Of a DNA stretch of 49,625 nt, positions 11,404-15,276 are shown in pieces. Both the position numbers and the translations under genes were made by a program. A model generated the notes under the pieces. That model did not search any database. It saw nothing but the letters and a program-made list of their open reading frames with translations, and was not told where the DNA came from. Source of the DNA: a virus. The stretch lies in IMG/VR virus record IMGVR_UViG_3300024289_000045, positions 1 through 49,625 of that record. One strand, given 5' to 3'. Numbering within the stretch: the first letter of the stretch is position 1; each line of letters opens with the position of its first letter.

Positions 11404-11704
11404 GTTATTCAAAAGATTAAATGACATTCACATATCAAAAGTATATGTAATGTTTTCTTATGAAAATAAAGAAATATCAATAATAAGTAATGTAATTATC
11501 ATGCAAGATCAAAGTTATGTTGTTGATTGGGGCGATGATGTTTATAGTGATAAATCATACATAGTAGAACCGATATATAAATATGATTTTCAAAATTATG
11601 ATAGTGTAGATGGATTATTAACATGGGATGTATTAAAGAATAAAGTTATTATAAGTGGTGAAAAAAAGATTGTTACTCTAGAAAAATTTTCTGAAGAAGT
11701 ATAG
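11390..11704 (+). CDS. Hypothetical protein, 104 aa
   Basis: Start chosen at the ATG at 11390, which overlaps the previous stop by 14 nt; an ATG at 11378 is in frame. The product is strand-rich with conserved-looking acidic and aromatic residues (VVDWGDDVYSDKSYIVEPIYKYDF). It is the last gene before the first structured leader. Function unknown. Confidence 0.55.
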   Translation: MTKSELFKRLNDIHISKVYVMFSYENKEISIISNVIIMQDQSYVVDWGDDVYSDKSYIVEPIYKYDFQNYDSVDGLLTWDVLKNKVIISGEKKIVTLEKFSEEV

Positions 11705-11713
11705 TAAATATAT

Positions 11714-11784
11714 GGGCGGTAGTAGTTGATTCACTAGGCAGGGAAACTTCTACTAATTAGCCTTGTTGGCTAAACCGCCCACCA
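11714..11784 (+). ncRNA. Structured leader RNA, copy 1 (before the cytosine methyltransferase)
   Basis: A 7-bp outer stem GGGCGGT (11714-11720) / ACCGCCC (11774-11780) encloses two hairpins: AGTAG/CTACT (11721-11725, 11750-11754), whose loop holds GGGA at 11741, and TTAGCC/GGCTAA (11757-11762, 11768-11773) with loop TTGTT. ACCA follows the outer stem, so the end looks like a tRNA acceptor. The same fold with covarying stems occurs at 13728-13790. It ends 13 nt before the methyltransferase ATG, whose ribosome site is AAGGA. It is either a cis-acting leader or a processed RNA. Confidence 0.75.
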
Positions 11785-11797
11785 AACAAGGATTATC

Positions 11798-12706
11798 ATG
11801 GAAGAAACTTTAAAAGTTTATGATATGTTTGCTGGTATTGGTGGTTTTTCTCTGGCTTTTCAACAAGCTGGTAATTACGAAATAACAGCCAACGCAGAAA
11901 TAGACAAATATCCTAGCGAAGTATTAAAAAAGAATTTTCCATCTATACCAAACTTTGGCGATGTTACAAAAATAACATATCAATCAAATCAGTTTGATGT
12001 GATCGTGGGCGGATTTCCTTGCACAGACATTTCTATAGCAAGTAAAACAAAGGACGGTATTTATGGAAAAAGATCTATTCTCTGGAAAGAATTCTTTAGA
12101 GCAGTCACAGAAGTCAGACCAAAATATTGTGTCATTGAAAATGTCTTTATGCTCCTTAGAAGAGGGCTTAACACAATTCTCTCAGACCTTGCCAAAATCG
12201 GGTACGATGCGACTTATACGACCATTGATGCACAATTCTGCGGAACACCACAAAGAAGACGCAGAGTTTACATTCTCGGAGTCCGTGATGGAATCTCCGC
12301 CAACGCCGATATCTTCCAACTTGGAGAGCGTAGTACAACAGAATGTGAACGAAAAGTACAGTCTGTCAAAAAAAGCTTTAAGTGGTATTTTGAGCAGAGC
12401 GAAAAAAGGGAACAAGCCTTTGCCTACTTTACTCGCCAAAGAAGTGATCAATTTGATGAATGCGGAGTATCCTCCACATTAACTAAAAGAGATTATAAAT
12501 CTTTTACAGATTTAGTAGTGTCTAAAGGAAATATACGAAGAGTAACGCCAACAGAAAGACTTAGACTGATGGGTTTTCCCGATGATTGGCATTTAACTAA
12601 TGCCTCAGATACAGATAAGTATAAATATTGTGGAATGCATGTTCCTTCAGTTAAATATATTGCGGAATGCTTAAATAAATATCATAAGGAAACTATTAAG
12701 GATTGA
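11798..12706 (+). CDS. dcm: DNA (cytosine-5) methyltransferase
   Basis: The 302-residue enzyme shows the C5-methyltransferase motifs in order: I DMFAGIGGFSLAF (9-21), IV GGFPC (71-75, catalytic Cys75), VI ENV (114-116), VIII QRRRR (152-156), IX and X near RRVTPTERLRLMGFPDDW and the C-terminus. It transfers a methyl group from S-adenosylmethionine to cytosine, probably to protect phage DNA from host restriction. No partner endonuclease lies next to it. Expression may be controlled by the structured leader directly upstream. The gene reaches TGA 3 nt before the next ATG. Confidence 0.92.
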   Translation: MEETLKVYDMFAGIGGFSLAFQQAGNYEITANAEIDKYPSEVLKKNFPSIPNFGDVTKITYQSNQFDVIVGGFPCTDISIASKTKDGIYGKRSILWKEFFRAVTEVRPKYCVIENVFMLLRRGLNTILSDLAKIGYDATYTTIDAQFCGTPQRRRRVYILGVRDGISANADIFQLGERSTTECERKVQSVKKSFKWYFEQSEKREQAFAYFTRQRSDQFDECGVSSTLTKRDYKSFTDLVVSKGNIRRVTPTERLRLMGFPDDWHLTNASDTDKYKYCGMHVPSVKYIAECLNKYHKETIKD

Positions 12707-12708
12707 TC

Positions 12709-13344
12709 ATGTTTGATTTTGCAAAAGCAGCGCCAACTTTTAATGAACACATTAAAGGTCAATTATTTTGGCATGAAGATTTTTTAAGACATTTCTTGCC
12801 AGAAATTGCATCTGTATATATGGAACCAGATAGTGTGGTATATGATTTTGGGGCAAGTACAGGCAATGTTGGATTAGCATTAAGAGATAAAATAAAAGAA
12901 AGAAATATTGAGTTTTATGCTATTGAAAAATGTCAAGAAATGGAACCGTACTATATTGGTGATTATCAAAGTCTAATAATAGGCGACATGCTAGATATAT
13001 GTATAAGAGAGTTTTCTTTCGCAACAAGTATTTTAGCATTGTGCTTTATTCATCCAAGTAAAAGAACTGACTTTATAGAAAAACTTAAACACAAATGTAA
13101 GAATGGTGGAGCATTTTTAATTTTAGAAAAAATGATGCCTCATGGTGGCTATCTTGGTACTGCCTTAAATCGTATTACTTGGAGAAATAAATTAGAAAAT
13201 GGCGAGTCTCTTGAACAAGTTGTATACAAAGAACTTTCTCTCAGCGGTGTACAATATCCATTGTGCGAAAAAGAACTAGAAGGATTTAAACTTATTTGGG
13301 CGTATGGTGATTTTCGTTCTTATATTTGGACTAATGGCTTTTAA
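12709..13344 (+). CDS. Class I SAM-dependent methyltransferase
   Basis: The ATG at 12709 has AAGGA six bases upstream; a TTG at 12703 is less likely. Motif I is VVYDFGASTGNVGLAL (about 47-62), followed by FYAIEKCQEM and ILALCFIHPSKRTDFIEKLKHKCKNGGAFLILEKM. The layout is like the CmoA branch, enzymes acting on tRNA wobble uridine, but substrate is not provable from sequence. It is translationally close to the cytosine methyltransferase and shares its leader. Confidence 0.75.
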   Translation: MFDFAKAAPTFNEHIKGQLFWHEDFLRHFLPEIASVYMEPDSVVYDFGASTGNVGLALRDKIKERNIEFYAIEKCQEMEPYYIGDYQSLIIGDMLDICIREFSFATSILALCFIHPSKRTDFIEKLKHKCKNGGAFLILEKMMPHGGYLGTALNRITWRNKLENGESLEQVVYKELSLSGVQYPLCEKELEGFKLIWAYGDFRSYIWTNGF

Positions 13345-13367
13345 TATATGGCGTATTTATATACGCT

Positions 13368-13460
13368 ATGGAATATAGACCTTATATAGAACTGTTGATT
13401 TGGTATATAATTTATTTTTTAATTATGTACTCTATGGAAGAAGTTCTAAATGAAAAGTAG
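13368..13460 (+). CDS. Possible tiny membrane peptide, 30 aa
   Basis: The ORF encodes a largely hydrophobic peptide (YIELLIWYIIYFLIMY). It is preceded by a hairpin GCGTAT-TTAT-ATACGC (13352-13367) rather than a clear ribosome site. It fills the gap before a promoter-like element. Weakly supported. Confidence 0.3.
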   Translation: MEYRPYIELLIWYIIYFLIMYSMEEVLNEK

Positions 13461-13467
13461 TTATTGT

Positions 13468-13477
13468 CGAATAAACT
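13468..13477 (+). promoter_or_regulatory. CGAATAAACT element, candidate late promoter
   Basis: The recurrent CGAATAAA core lies in intergenic DNA 27 nt before the ATG at 13505, which has a strong AAGGAGG site. Confidence 0.45.
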
Positions 13478-13504
13478 AATATAACCCTAACTCAAGGAGG
13501 ATTT

Positions 13505-13723
13505 ATGTTCAAGTTTCTTAAGAATATATTTGTAAAGTCTGAAGATCAAATCAATTTAGCTATATTAAAAACAAAGTTGCAAGATCTAGAAATAGATAAC
13601 AAGGATTTTGAAATAGTAAATAATAACTTAAAAGATGAAAATAAGGAACTTACTAATAGAATAAAAGAACTAAACATTAAGCTTGATTCAATTAAAATTA
13701 TATTGGATTCTATTAACAAATAA
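13505..13723 (+). CDS. Coiled-coil protein, 72 aa
   Basis: AAGGAGG precedes the ATG. After a short basic N-terminus, almost the whole protein is a coiled coil with Leu and Ile heptads (LKTKLQDLEIDNKDFEIVNN ... ELTNRIKELNIKLDSIKII). It is likely a homo- or hetero-oligomeric adaptor. It lies just upstream of the second structured leader and may be transcribed with it. Confidence 0.62.
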   Translation: MFKFLKNIFVKSEDQINLAILKTKLQDLEIDNKDFEIVNNNLKDENKELTNRIKELNIKLDSIKIILDSINK

Positions 13724-13727
13724 TTAT

Positions 13728-13790
13728 GGGCGGTAGCAATTTACCGTGGTGGGATAAGTTGCGTGATCTTGTTGATCAAACCGCCCACCA
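13728..13790 (+). ncRNA. Structured leader RNA, copy 2 (before the CsrA homologue)
   Basis: The outer stem GGGCGGT (13728-13734) / ACCGCCC (13780-13786) is identical to copy 1. Inside are GCAA/TTGC (13736-13739, 13759-13762), with GGGA at 13751, and TGATC/GATCA (13764-13768, 13774-13778) with the same TTGTT loop. The inner stems differ in sequence from copy 1 but keep pairing, which is covariation. ACCA again follows. It ends 14 nt before the csrA-like ATG; the ribosome site AGGAGA also holds a GGA. Confidence 0.75.
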
Positions 13791-13804
13791 AGATAGGAGA
13801 TAAA

Positions 13805-13999
13805 ATGGAAACAGGGAATTTAGTTTTTACAAGAAATTTTGGAGAGTCTTTTACTATTTTCACTCCATCTGGAAACATAGTAATAACACTTCTTGCAGAT
13901 AAGATAAGCATAAATAAAGCAAAAGTAAAAATAAATGCTCCAAAAGATTTTAAAATTATGAGAAATGAAATTATCAATACAACGAGGGATAAAAAATGA
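13805..13999 (+). CDS. csrA: CsrA/RsmA-family RNA-binding regulator
   Basis: The 64-residue product follows the CsrA pattern: LVFTRNFGESFTIF (compare bacterial LILTRRVGETLMI), a strand region, then VKINAPKDFKIMRNEI (compare VGVNAPKEVSVHREEI). The Arg residues that contact RNA in CsrA, near positions 10 and 53, are present. CsrA dimers bind GGA motifs in hairpin loops and ribosome sites and usually repress translation. The ORF can be extended upstream to 13763, but that lies in the leader RNA; 13805 has AGGAGA at good spacing. Its stop overlaps the DUF1501 start (ATGA), so the two are coupled. It may regulate itself, the DUF1501 gene, and host or phage mRNAs. Confidence 0.82.
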   Translation: METGNLVFTRNFGESFTIFTPSGNIVITLLADKISINKAKVKINAPKDFKIMRNEIINTTRDKK

Positions 14000-15276
14000 A
14001 CAGGCGACACTTTTTACAGCATACAACAGAATTTGCTTCTCTTGCATTAGTATCTAATCTATATGCACAGCAAGAAACCATAAAGAAAAAGGGAAAAAGA
14101 CTCATTGTGCTTTGGATGAGTGGTGGCCCAAGTCATATGGATTTATGGGATTTGAAGACAGGAGAATCAACTGGTGGAGACTTTAAACAGATCAAAACTT
14201 CTGCAAACGGAGTGCAGATTAGTGAGGTATTGCCAACAGTTGCTGAACAGTTCAAACACTTGGTGGCTATTAGATCTTTGGTTACTAATGAAGGCAGTCA
14301 TGAGCGTGGCACATTCTTAATGAATACGGCCAAGCAACCAAACCCAGTAGTGCAATATCCAGCTATGGGCGCAGTTGTATCTTCTATGATTGGCTCTAAA
14401 GAGTTGCCATTACCTAATTTTATTGGAATTGGTGGAACTGCACAACGCATTGGGCCAGGATTCCTTGGCGCAATGTACACTCCTTTTGTTGTGCAAAATC
14501 CTGGCGTTCCTCCAGAAAATATAAAGCCACCATCAGAAATTGGCAATGAAGAAGAGCGTCTTAGAAGAAGGCAGAGATTATTCTACGGAATAGAAGATGA
14601 GTTTGCTGCAAAGATAATGCCTCATGTAAAAGGTGCAAAAGACAGAGAAAGTTTAGGTAATGTCGCACAATCACATGCTTCTATATATGGTAAAGCATTT
14701 GATCTAACTATTTCGCCACTTAGAACTGTATTTGAAATAAAGAACGAAAGCCAAGCGACTATAGATGCTTATGGCGGTAGGATGAATCAGTTTGGCATGG
14801 GATGCCTTCTTGCAAGAAAATTAATTGAGAAGGGAGTTAGTTGTGTTCAAGTGGATCTCGGCGGATGGGATAATCATAATAATATCTTTTCTACTATTAG
14901 GAATGGTAATGGCCCTCGGCTTGATAAAGGTTTTGGAAACCTTGTAAAAGAACTAAACGATATTGGTCTTTGGAAAGATACTGTAGTTTTATGGATGGGC
15001 GAATTTGGTCGTACACCTAAGATTAATCAAAATGGTGGACGAGATCATTGGGCAAGATGTTGGTCTATAGTAGTAGGCGGAGGTTCCATTAAGGGTGGAC
15101 AAGCTTATGGTTCTACTAGCAAAGATGGTTTAGACATTAAGGATAAGCCATGCTCAATAGGCGATGTATATGCTACTGTTTATAAAGCTTTAGATATGGA
15201 TCTATCTGCTCAAATTAGAGACAACATTGGACGACCCATGGCTATTACAGAAGGAAAACCTCTAGATATCTTTTAA
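13996..15276 (+). CDS. DUF1501 family protein with a Tat signal
   Basis: The 426-residue protein starts MNRRHFLQHTTEFASLALVS, a twin-arginine export signal. It continues with LIVLWMSGGPSHMDLWDLK, GPGFLGAMYTPFVV and VVLWMGEFGRTPKIN.NGGRDHW, all hallmarks of DUF1501, an alkaline-phosphatase-fold family related to sulfatases and very expanded in Planctomycetes. It should be exported folded to the periplasm. The full family length is kept and the gene looks less AT-rich than its neighbours, so it is probably a recent host-derived acquisition. The substrate is unknown. It is translationally coupled to csrA. Confidence 0.88.
   Translation: MNRRHFLQHTTEFASLALVSNLYAQQETIKKKGKRLIVLWMSGGPSHMDLWDLKTGESTGGDFKQIKTSANGVQISEVLPTVAEQFKHLVAIRSLVTNEGSHERGTFLMNTAKQPNPVVQYPAMGAVVSSMIGSKELPLPNFIGIGGTAQRIGPGFLGAMYTPFVVQNPGVPPENIKPPSEIGNEEERLRRRQRLFYGIEDEFAAKIMPHVKGAKDRESLGNVAQSHASIYGKAFDLTISPLRTVFEIKNESQATIDAYGGRMNQFGMGCLLARKLIEKGVSCVQVDLGGWDNHNNIFSTIRNGNGPRLDKGFGNLVKELNDIGLWKDTVVLWMGEFGRTPKINQNGGRDHWARCWSIVVGGGSIKGGQAYGSTSKDGLDIKDKPCSIGDVYATVYKALDMDLSAQIRDNIGRPMAITEGKPLDIF

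Follow-up and report, generated by a model that had tools for sequence, protein, structure and literature searches.

We report two structured RNA leaders in the virus record IMGVR_UViG_3300024289_000045, a stretch of 49,625 bases analysed here as a whole and called the window. The two elements, E1 and E2, are three-way junctions located just upstream of a C5-cytosine DNA methyltransferase gene and of csrA, a gene coding for a CsrA homolog, respectively. Covariation among related sequences has shown that the elements are structured at the RNA level, and together with further copies they very probably form a family linked to csrA; the position before csrA and the additional copy before the methyltransferase gene are seen directly. 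This small RNA family before phage csrA, which is apparently unnamed, was delineated in one phage group. Judged from sequence alone, we give about an even chance to the reading that the leader is a translational operator for the phage CsrA, serving self-control of csrA and, after a duplication of the leader, control of the methyltransferase gene. The elements, their parts and the genes they precede are given below, with z scores from folding and with bit scores and expectation values (E) from covariance model R3, which was built from eight distinct elements, E1 and E2 included, and matches these two by construction.

11714 to 11780, plus strand: E1, leader forming a three-way junction 5' of the DNA methyltransferase gene (fold z -3.53; R3 54.2 bits, E 3.1e-13; covariation).
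11714-11720/11774-11780, 11721-11725/11750-11754 and 11757-11762/11768-11773: helices P1, P2 and P3 of E1.
11737 to 11744, plus strand: arm-2 motif of E1, GGCAGGGA, which is GGUGGG followed by A or C in the other elements (alignments, fold).
11763 to 11767, plus strand: arm-3 pentaloop UUGUU of E1 (fold, alignment).
11781 to 11784, plus strand: ACCA after P1 of E1, common to E2 only and outside the family.
11788 to 11792, plus strand: AAGGA, Shine-Dalgarno-like, after E1.
11798 to 12706, plus strand: C5-cytosine DNA methyltransferase gene after E1 (PF00145, E 2.3e-56; phrog_116).
13728 to 13786, plus strand: E2, three-way-junction leader of csrA (fold z -4.80; R3 60.4 bits, E 4.9e-15).
13728-13734/13780-13786, 13736-13739/13759-13762 and 13764-13768/13774-13778: helices P1, P2 and P3 of E2.
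13748 to 13754, plus strand: arm-2 motif of E2, GGUGGGA (alignments, fold).
13769 to 13773, plus strand: arm-3 pentaloop UUGUU of E2 (fold, alignment).
13795 to 13799, plus strand: AGGAG, Shine-Dalgarno-like, 5' of csrA (read from the sequence).
13805 to 13999, plus strand: csrA, coding for a CsrA homolog of 64 amino acids, after E2 (PF02599, 37.3 bits with a cut-off of 27; phrog_9500, CsrA-like; PDB alignment).

The original prediction had described two paralogous structured leaders bounded by GGGCGGTAG and ACCGCCCACCA, with a TTGTT loop and a distance of 13-14 nucleotides to the gene starts, and these are present letter for letter: GGGCGGTAG opens the elements at 11714 (E1) and 13728 (E2), TTGTT lies in both, ACCGCCCACCA closes them at 11774-11784 and 13780-13790, and the ATGs at 11798 and 13805 come 13 and 14 nucleotides after the ends of E1 and E2 (ACCA counted). 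Their paralogy was borne out by fold, by alignment and by covariation. When compared with dinucleotide shuffles, 1 of 200 folded as well as E1 and none of 200 as well as E2. The alignment of E1 with E2 was equalled by 0 of 200 shuffles, and that of the 200-nucleotide flanks by 136 and 134 of 200. The inner stems of the two elements differ in sequence with the pairing kept.

E1 and E2, with identical flanks, recur in two longer sister records of the same phage, of 206 and 221 kilobases. Both of these carry a second csrA, 76% identical to the first, with a third element, E3, upstream of it; E3 consists of GGGCGGTA, GGUGGGA in arm 2, UUGUU in arm 3 and ACCGCCC followed by CTCT (no ACCA). The covariance model R1, run on the two long records, found exactly three places in each, E1, E2 and E3, which are the elements of the window's phage; those of its relatives were named E4a-E4d and E5. 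A second model, R2, for which only E1-E3 were used, was applied to the window together with 24 methyltransferase loci (20 in related phages, with methyltransferases 76-78% identical, the other 4 from the window's phage; 197,502 bases), and its sole match outside the window was L232 428-485 (E=0.006), immediately upstream of the csrA of a related phage. On ten csrA loci of relatives, R2 recovered 5 of the 8 full junctions with E from 4.7e-5 to 0.0016, and matched nowhere else; it failed on E5, L297 and L298 (the element of L297 and L298 being identical to that of L292) and on both leaders lacking arm P2. Of the 22 records searched for PF02599, 17 contained it.

The commonest csrA leader of the relatives reads GGUGUCU, GACC-loop-GGUC, CUAGUU-GUGUU-GACUAG and AGACACC. 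The outer helix P1 is here rewritten from GGGCGGU/ACCGCCC to GGUGUCU/AGACACC, and to GGUAUCU/AGAUACC in L296; as P1 has changed in sequence and is still paired, this is strong evidence for the helix. The 27 csrA loci hold 12 distinct leader stretches of 130 nucleotides, and the whole junction is found in 24 of the 27. Further copies with compensating changes, on which the original prediction had staked its claim, thus exist as E3 and the csrA leaders of the relatives. In the full leaders of the relatives (L289-L303), ATTATAA or ATTATAG adjoins the 5' side of P1 and may act as a promoter or a spacer.

Covariation carries the structural claim. Among E1-E3, in which P1 is identical, 5 of 17 pairs are changed on both sides, a count reached by 4 of 500 shuffles; the elements compared are related sequences, and such shuffle figures are not probabilities. 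The alignment of the eight distinct elements (A6) exhibited double-sided changes in 10 of 19 pairs (P1 4/7, P2 2/6, P3 4/6), reached by 2 of 500 shuffles, with the arm P2 of E1 two columns out of register, which makes the P2 counts of E1 unreliable in this test. None of 500 shuffles reached the covariation score of A6, and 98.6% of its 141 cells are paired, compared to 30-44% for slid controls; the count of further pair types was unexceptional (143 of 500 shuffles). The alignment A8 comprises 16 matches, of which 11 are distinct; 11 of its 17 pairs are changed on both sides, but A8 was fitted to the model, hence is biased towards it, and includes the weak matches lacking P2 as well as a chance-level match in L297 (12.6 bits). 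The selection on RNA structure claimed earlier was upheld by these compensatory changes, which are found in each of the three helices and exceed both the shuffled and the slid controls.

Energy folding was less clean than covariation. P1 is retained in the minimum-energy folds of all seven elements checked (E1, E2, E4a-E4d, E5), and the consensus helices appear in those of E1, E2, E4c and E5; the own fold of E3 contains all three helices. A switch between P1 and a GGUGGG-CCCACC pairing is perfect by eye in E2 only and was dropped.

We found also that the family stays with csrA. R3 matched 20 of 26 records at E<=1, 17 over the full length (52-80 bits) and three partially (G018 and G019 at 21.0 bits, G020 at 12.0 bits). 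Each of the 20 has a csrA of this phage group, every csrA having a single match, full or partial, and the only copy not before csrA is E1; the new information in this search is the absence of other places. No match was obtained in the five group records where no csrA was found, nor in G026, which has a distant csrA. The partial matches, which are the P2-less variants, are inseparable from background by score and rest on their place before csrA: among 61 genomes of the phylum of the Clostridium record G028, used as background, 2 matched R3 at E<=0.1 (22.6 and 21.6 bits). A CsrA search of genome contigs gave three distant loci, with no R3 match in their genomes.

The original prediction had placed both elements correctly before gene starts; the CsrA identity of the gene after E2, which is key to the family, was not noticed there. 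A profile of five phage CsrAs (alignment A5) matched CsrA/RsmE chains of the PDB with a best E of 6.1e-6. The arginine equivalent to R44 of E. coli CsrA is kept in 5/5 phage CsrAs aligned and aligns with the arginine of the PDB chains. According to PMC7366521, R44 is essential for GGA recognition and CsrA prefers GGA in apical loops. The phage CsrA had no relative at E<=1e-3 in the named phage collection, where the relatives of the window's DnaB are all below 60% identity.

Arm 2 keeps GG..GGG, as GGUGGG or, in E1, GGCAGGG, and GGA occurs within this arm in 7 of the 8 distinct full elements. The arm-3 pentaloop is UUGUU, GUGUU or GCGUU, closed by a C-G, U-G or U-A pair, and 12/12 distinct 130-nucleotide leader stretches, those without P2 included, retain P3 and its UGUU-type loop. 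The eight full elements are 58-69 nucleotides long, with a P1 of 7 base pairs ending 17-27 nucleotides before the ATG. A Shine-Dalgarno GGA is present in all 12 distinct csrA leader stretches and after E1.

The proposed mechanism rests on this arrangement. The junction would present arm P2 with GGUGGG(A) in its loop region and arm P3 with the UGUU-type pentaloop on the 7-base-pair P1; a dimer of the phage CsrA would bind the GGUGGGA of P2 together with the GGA-bearing Shine-Dalgarno sequence just past P1, the three-way junction keeping both sites in register, and would block translation of the csrA mRNA. Self-regulation by CsrA is the most likely and simplest account, because a GGA-preferring dimer with the arginine kept is encoded right behind an RNA bearing GGGA in an arm and GGA in the Shine-Dalgarno sequence. 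In the window's phage the leader would have been copied before the C5 DNA methyltransferase gene, which would come under the same control: E1 looks like a leader duplication since its P1 and its ACCA tail are those of E2, and a duplicated leader is most easily understood if it answers to a trans-acting factor. That this factor, the ligand, is CsrA seems to us evenly poised on the sequences at hand. We infer that the leader is transcribed, that CsrA binds it and represses instead of activating, and that the two genes are controlled together. More tentatively, and in our view with the balance tipping against it, a branch of phage CsrA might have co-evolved a private, portable junction operator, marked by the GGUGGG loop, the UGUU pentaloop and an outer helix that may vary in sequence, with a recognition code other than the classical ANGGA hairpin, and, by its copying to the methyltransferase, formed a small regulon controlled by CsrA after transcription.

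Several observations weigh against a CsrA operator. GGA is lost in E5 (L296), which has GGUGGGC and keeps GGUGGG, and a GGA in an apical loop is absent there as well as at the P2-less loci, namely L300, L301 and L304 (3 of 27 loci, two leader types), where the P3 hairpin is kept and P1 is reworked, shorter or A/U-rich. The GGGA is partly paired inside arm 2 in the predicted minimum-energy folds of E1 and E2. The Shine-Dalgarno GGA is near-trivial, being usual in such sites, and the arm-3 loop (U/G)(U/C)GUU, kept in every variant, is to our knowledge not a known CsrA motif. In E4a, E4b and E4d the minimum-energy folds have other inner pairs, favoured over the consensus by 0.4, 1.4 and 0.7 kcal/mol. 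R2, run on 13 whole records, found the known copies and not the csrA leader of any of 7 csrA-bearing relatives; it gave three weak matches (13.8, 13.8 and 11.7 bits), none of which is a leader, and the fast first pass of the search may have discarded the leaders of the relatives. Finally, a different hairpin precedes the methyltransferase gene in the relatives, as seen at the 15 loci, out of 20, whose upstream sequence was examined.

This other methyltransferase leader (L230-L249, for example L230 around 2460-2500) is a conserved A/U-rich hairpin of 9-10 base pairs, UUGUAAGAAA / UUUCUUACAA, with a slightly varying loop, that runs directly into a GGAGG Shine-Dalgarno sequence; its UUACAAGGAGGU is close to the CsrA consensus obtained by systematic evolution of ligands by exponential enrichment. 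As for the other folds, in E4a, E4b and E4d (L292, L293, L302) a pairing of the arm-2 GGUGGGA with UCUUACU, located where P2 and P3 meet, is slightly favoured over the consensus junction, and a two-state fold is possible in the models of these three, not common to the family.

An operator for another protein, of phage or host, with csrA and the methyltransferase gene as targets, is rather unlikely; such a protein would recognise the UGUU pentaloop of arm 3 on the stacked P1 and P3, and CsrA would not be the ligand. An operator of this kind would account for the constancy of P3 and its loop through all 12 leader stretches, even without P2, and for the variant lacking the GGA of P2. However, there is no candidate protein, and the R3 matches in the 26 records lie before csrA and the methyltransferase gene of this phage only.

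We consider it improbable that the leader is a structural 5' end or a processing element (a stabiliser of the mRNA or an RNase P-type cleavage site) with no dedicated regulator. The stable P1 of 7 base pairs, followed by RCCA in E1 and E2 and close to the Shine-Dalgarno sequence, would suit such a role, but E3 and the relatives have no RCCA after P1, no tRNA model matched, and a plain stabiliser would need neither conserved loop motifs nor linkage to csrA. The same evidence disposes of the tRNA-like ends in the original prediction. RCCA occurs in 2 of the 8 distinct full elements, E1 and E2, which alone have ACCA, the tails being CCGCCC-CTCT in E3 and AGACACC-TTGT/TTAT or AGATACC-TTAT in the relatives, and the tRNA-like element was rejected.

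A small-molecule riboswitch, with the junction as an aptamer controlling translation of csrA and the methyltransferase, is very improbable. The three-way junction with its conserved loop nucleotides, its covarying stems and its 5' leader position, and the near-equal alternative inner folds of some members, are what an aptamer could look like, but the link is to a regulator gene and not to metabolism or transport, P2 is absent at 3/27 loci, there is no Rfam match for the leaders E1-E3, and no pairing with the Shine-Dalgarno sequence is common to the leaders. In E1, CCUUGUU of arm 3 is perfectly complementary to AACAAGG (11785-11791), which enters the Shine-Dalgarno sequence of the methyltransferase (11763-11791 in the window); this pairing has 7 base pairs in E1 (1% of shuffles), 6 in E2, next to the site (9.6%), and at most 4 in six other full leaders. 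A loop-Shine-Dalgarno pseudoknot was rejected as a family feature, and a pseudoknot specific to E1 is possible from the sequence. A scan of 11500-14050 gave 9 promoter-like sites versus 12.0 expected and 0 terminators, hence no evidence of an attenuator.

The statement of the original prediction that no known riboswitch or tRNA class was recognised agrees with these searches. In the window, ARAGORN found only a tRNA-Leu at 2735, and Rfam (release 15) at gathering score found only that tRNA. At E<=1, Rfam gave no tRNA and nothing near the gathering score in the leaders E1-E3; the weak matches were PK-PYVV (E 0.1, 19.7 bits compared to 65 needed) and Transposase-1 (E 0.74, a truncated match immediately outside E3).

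That the elements are inverted repeats arisen by chance, or repeated DNA with no function as RNA, is hardly credible: the half-pattern GGGCGGT/ACCGCCC alone is frequent by chance, but compensatory changes fall in all three helices, the location stays constant through the changes in P1 sequence, E1 resembles E2 and their flanks do not resemble each other, and the covariation test contradicts this explanation. Pattern searches illustrate the background. By chance alone the bare pattern GGGCGGTA..AACCGCCC occurs often (at least 120 stretches), and among the pattern matches L030-L148 the element was recognised only in L056 and L091. One extra match to the strict pattern in another contig, L001, was not matched by R2 and was treated as chance; at a rough estimate, a few such strict matches are expected by chance in a collection of this size. 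Loose stem patterns in viral contigs gave, among the matches listed, nearly all chance-like stretches, several of them resembling reversed tRNA genes, and when the distinct ones were sorted by arm-3 pairing only E1, E2 and E3 were recognised. An inner-motif pattern gave 13 stretches, 11 of them from the window's phage; the other two, L224 and L225, were not matched by R2.

The surroundings of csrA are also constant. At 27/27 csrA loci an open reading frame of 72-106 codons ends just 5' of the leader, and another one starting MNRR(H/N)F, like the DUF1501 gene of the window, lies 3' of csrA. The corresponding genes of the window are the following.

13505 to 13723, plus strand: small gene 5' of E2 with weak similarity to a coiled-coil family (DUF7491, 20.1 bits, below the cut-off of 30).
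13996 to 15276, plus strand: DUF1501 gene after csrA (PF07394, E 2.2e-92).

The triplet of small gene, csrA and DUF1501-type gene occurs twice in the phage of the 206- and 221-kilobase records, each time with its own leader (window 13505-15276, and L283-L288). The DUF1501 copy of the window had no PHROG match; such genes are, as far as we know, unusual in phages, and we take them to suggest a planctomycete host. Between the methyltransferase gene and csrA, a gene at 12709-13344 matched phrog_4752 (tRNA methyltransferase, E 2.2e-29) and no Pfam family.

In PMC7366521, csrA is reported in 30 of 2,517 phage genomes, a small share. No description of a control element or leader RNA of a phage csrA was found in the parts of the literature searched, a search with most subscription journals and preprints outside its scope. 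The leader would give one phage group a defined RNA with a likely protein partner, and its apparent duplication onto a second gene would illustrate, in a directly testable case, the way a phage could assemble a post-transcriptional regulon of its own; variants occurring in nature, with GGA lost, P2 lost or P1 rewritten, are ready-made test cases.

Like cis-regulatory families of Rfam, the element is a structured leader with covarying helices, though no family matched. With tRNA-like structures, E1 and E2 share an acceptor-like stem of 7 base pairs and ACCA; unlike them, no canonical D-, anticodon- or T-arm is seen, and ACCA is absent elsewhere in the family. The operators of T4 gp32, gp43 and RegA likewise place a control element near the start codon of a gene for a phage RNA-binding protein; these proteins are not CsrA homologs, and they act at a pseudoknot, a hairpin or sites that are largely unstructured. 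A further comparison is with the CsrA/RsmA operators of bacteria and the autoregulation of csrA. The CsrA consensus is ANGGA, and bacterial csrA leaders carry separate GGA sites. The phage element is alike in its location in a csrA leader, in the purine-rich GGGA of an arm loop region and in the Shine-Dalgarno GGA, and the phage CsrA keeps the key arginine. It differs in that the loop core is GGUGGG, with GGA or the whole arm absent in some relatives, and in that the phage leader is a dedicated three-way junction, covarying in its helices, where another conserved arm carries the UGUU loop.

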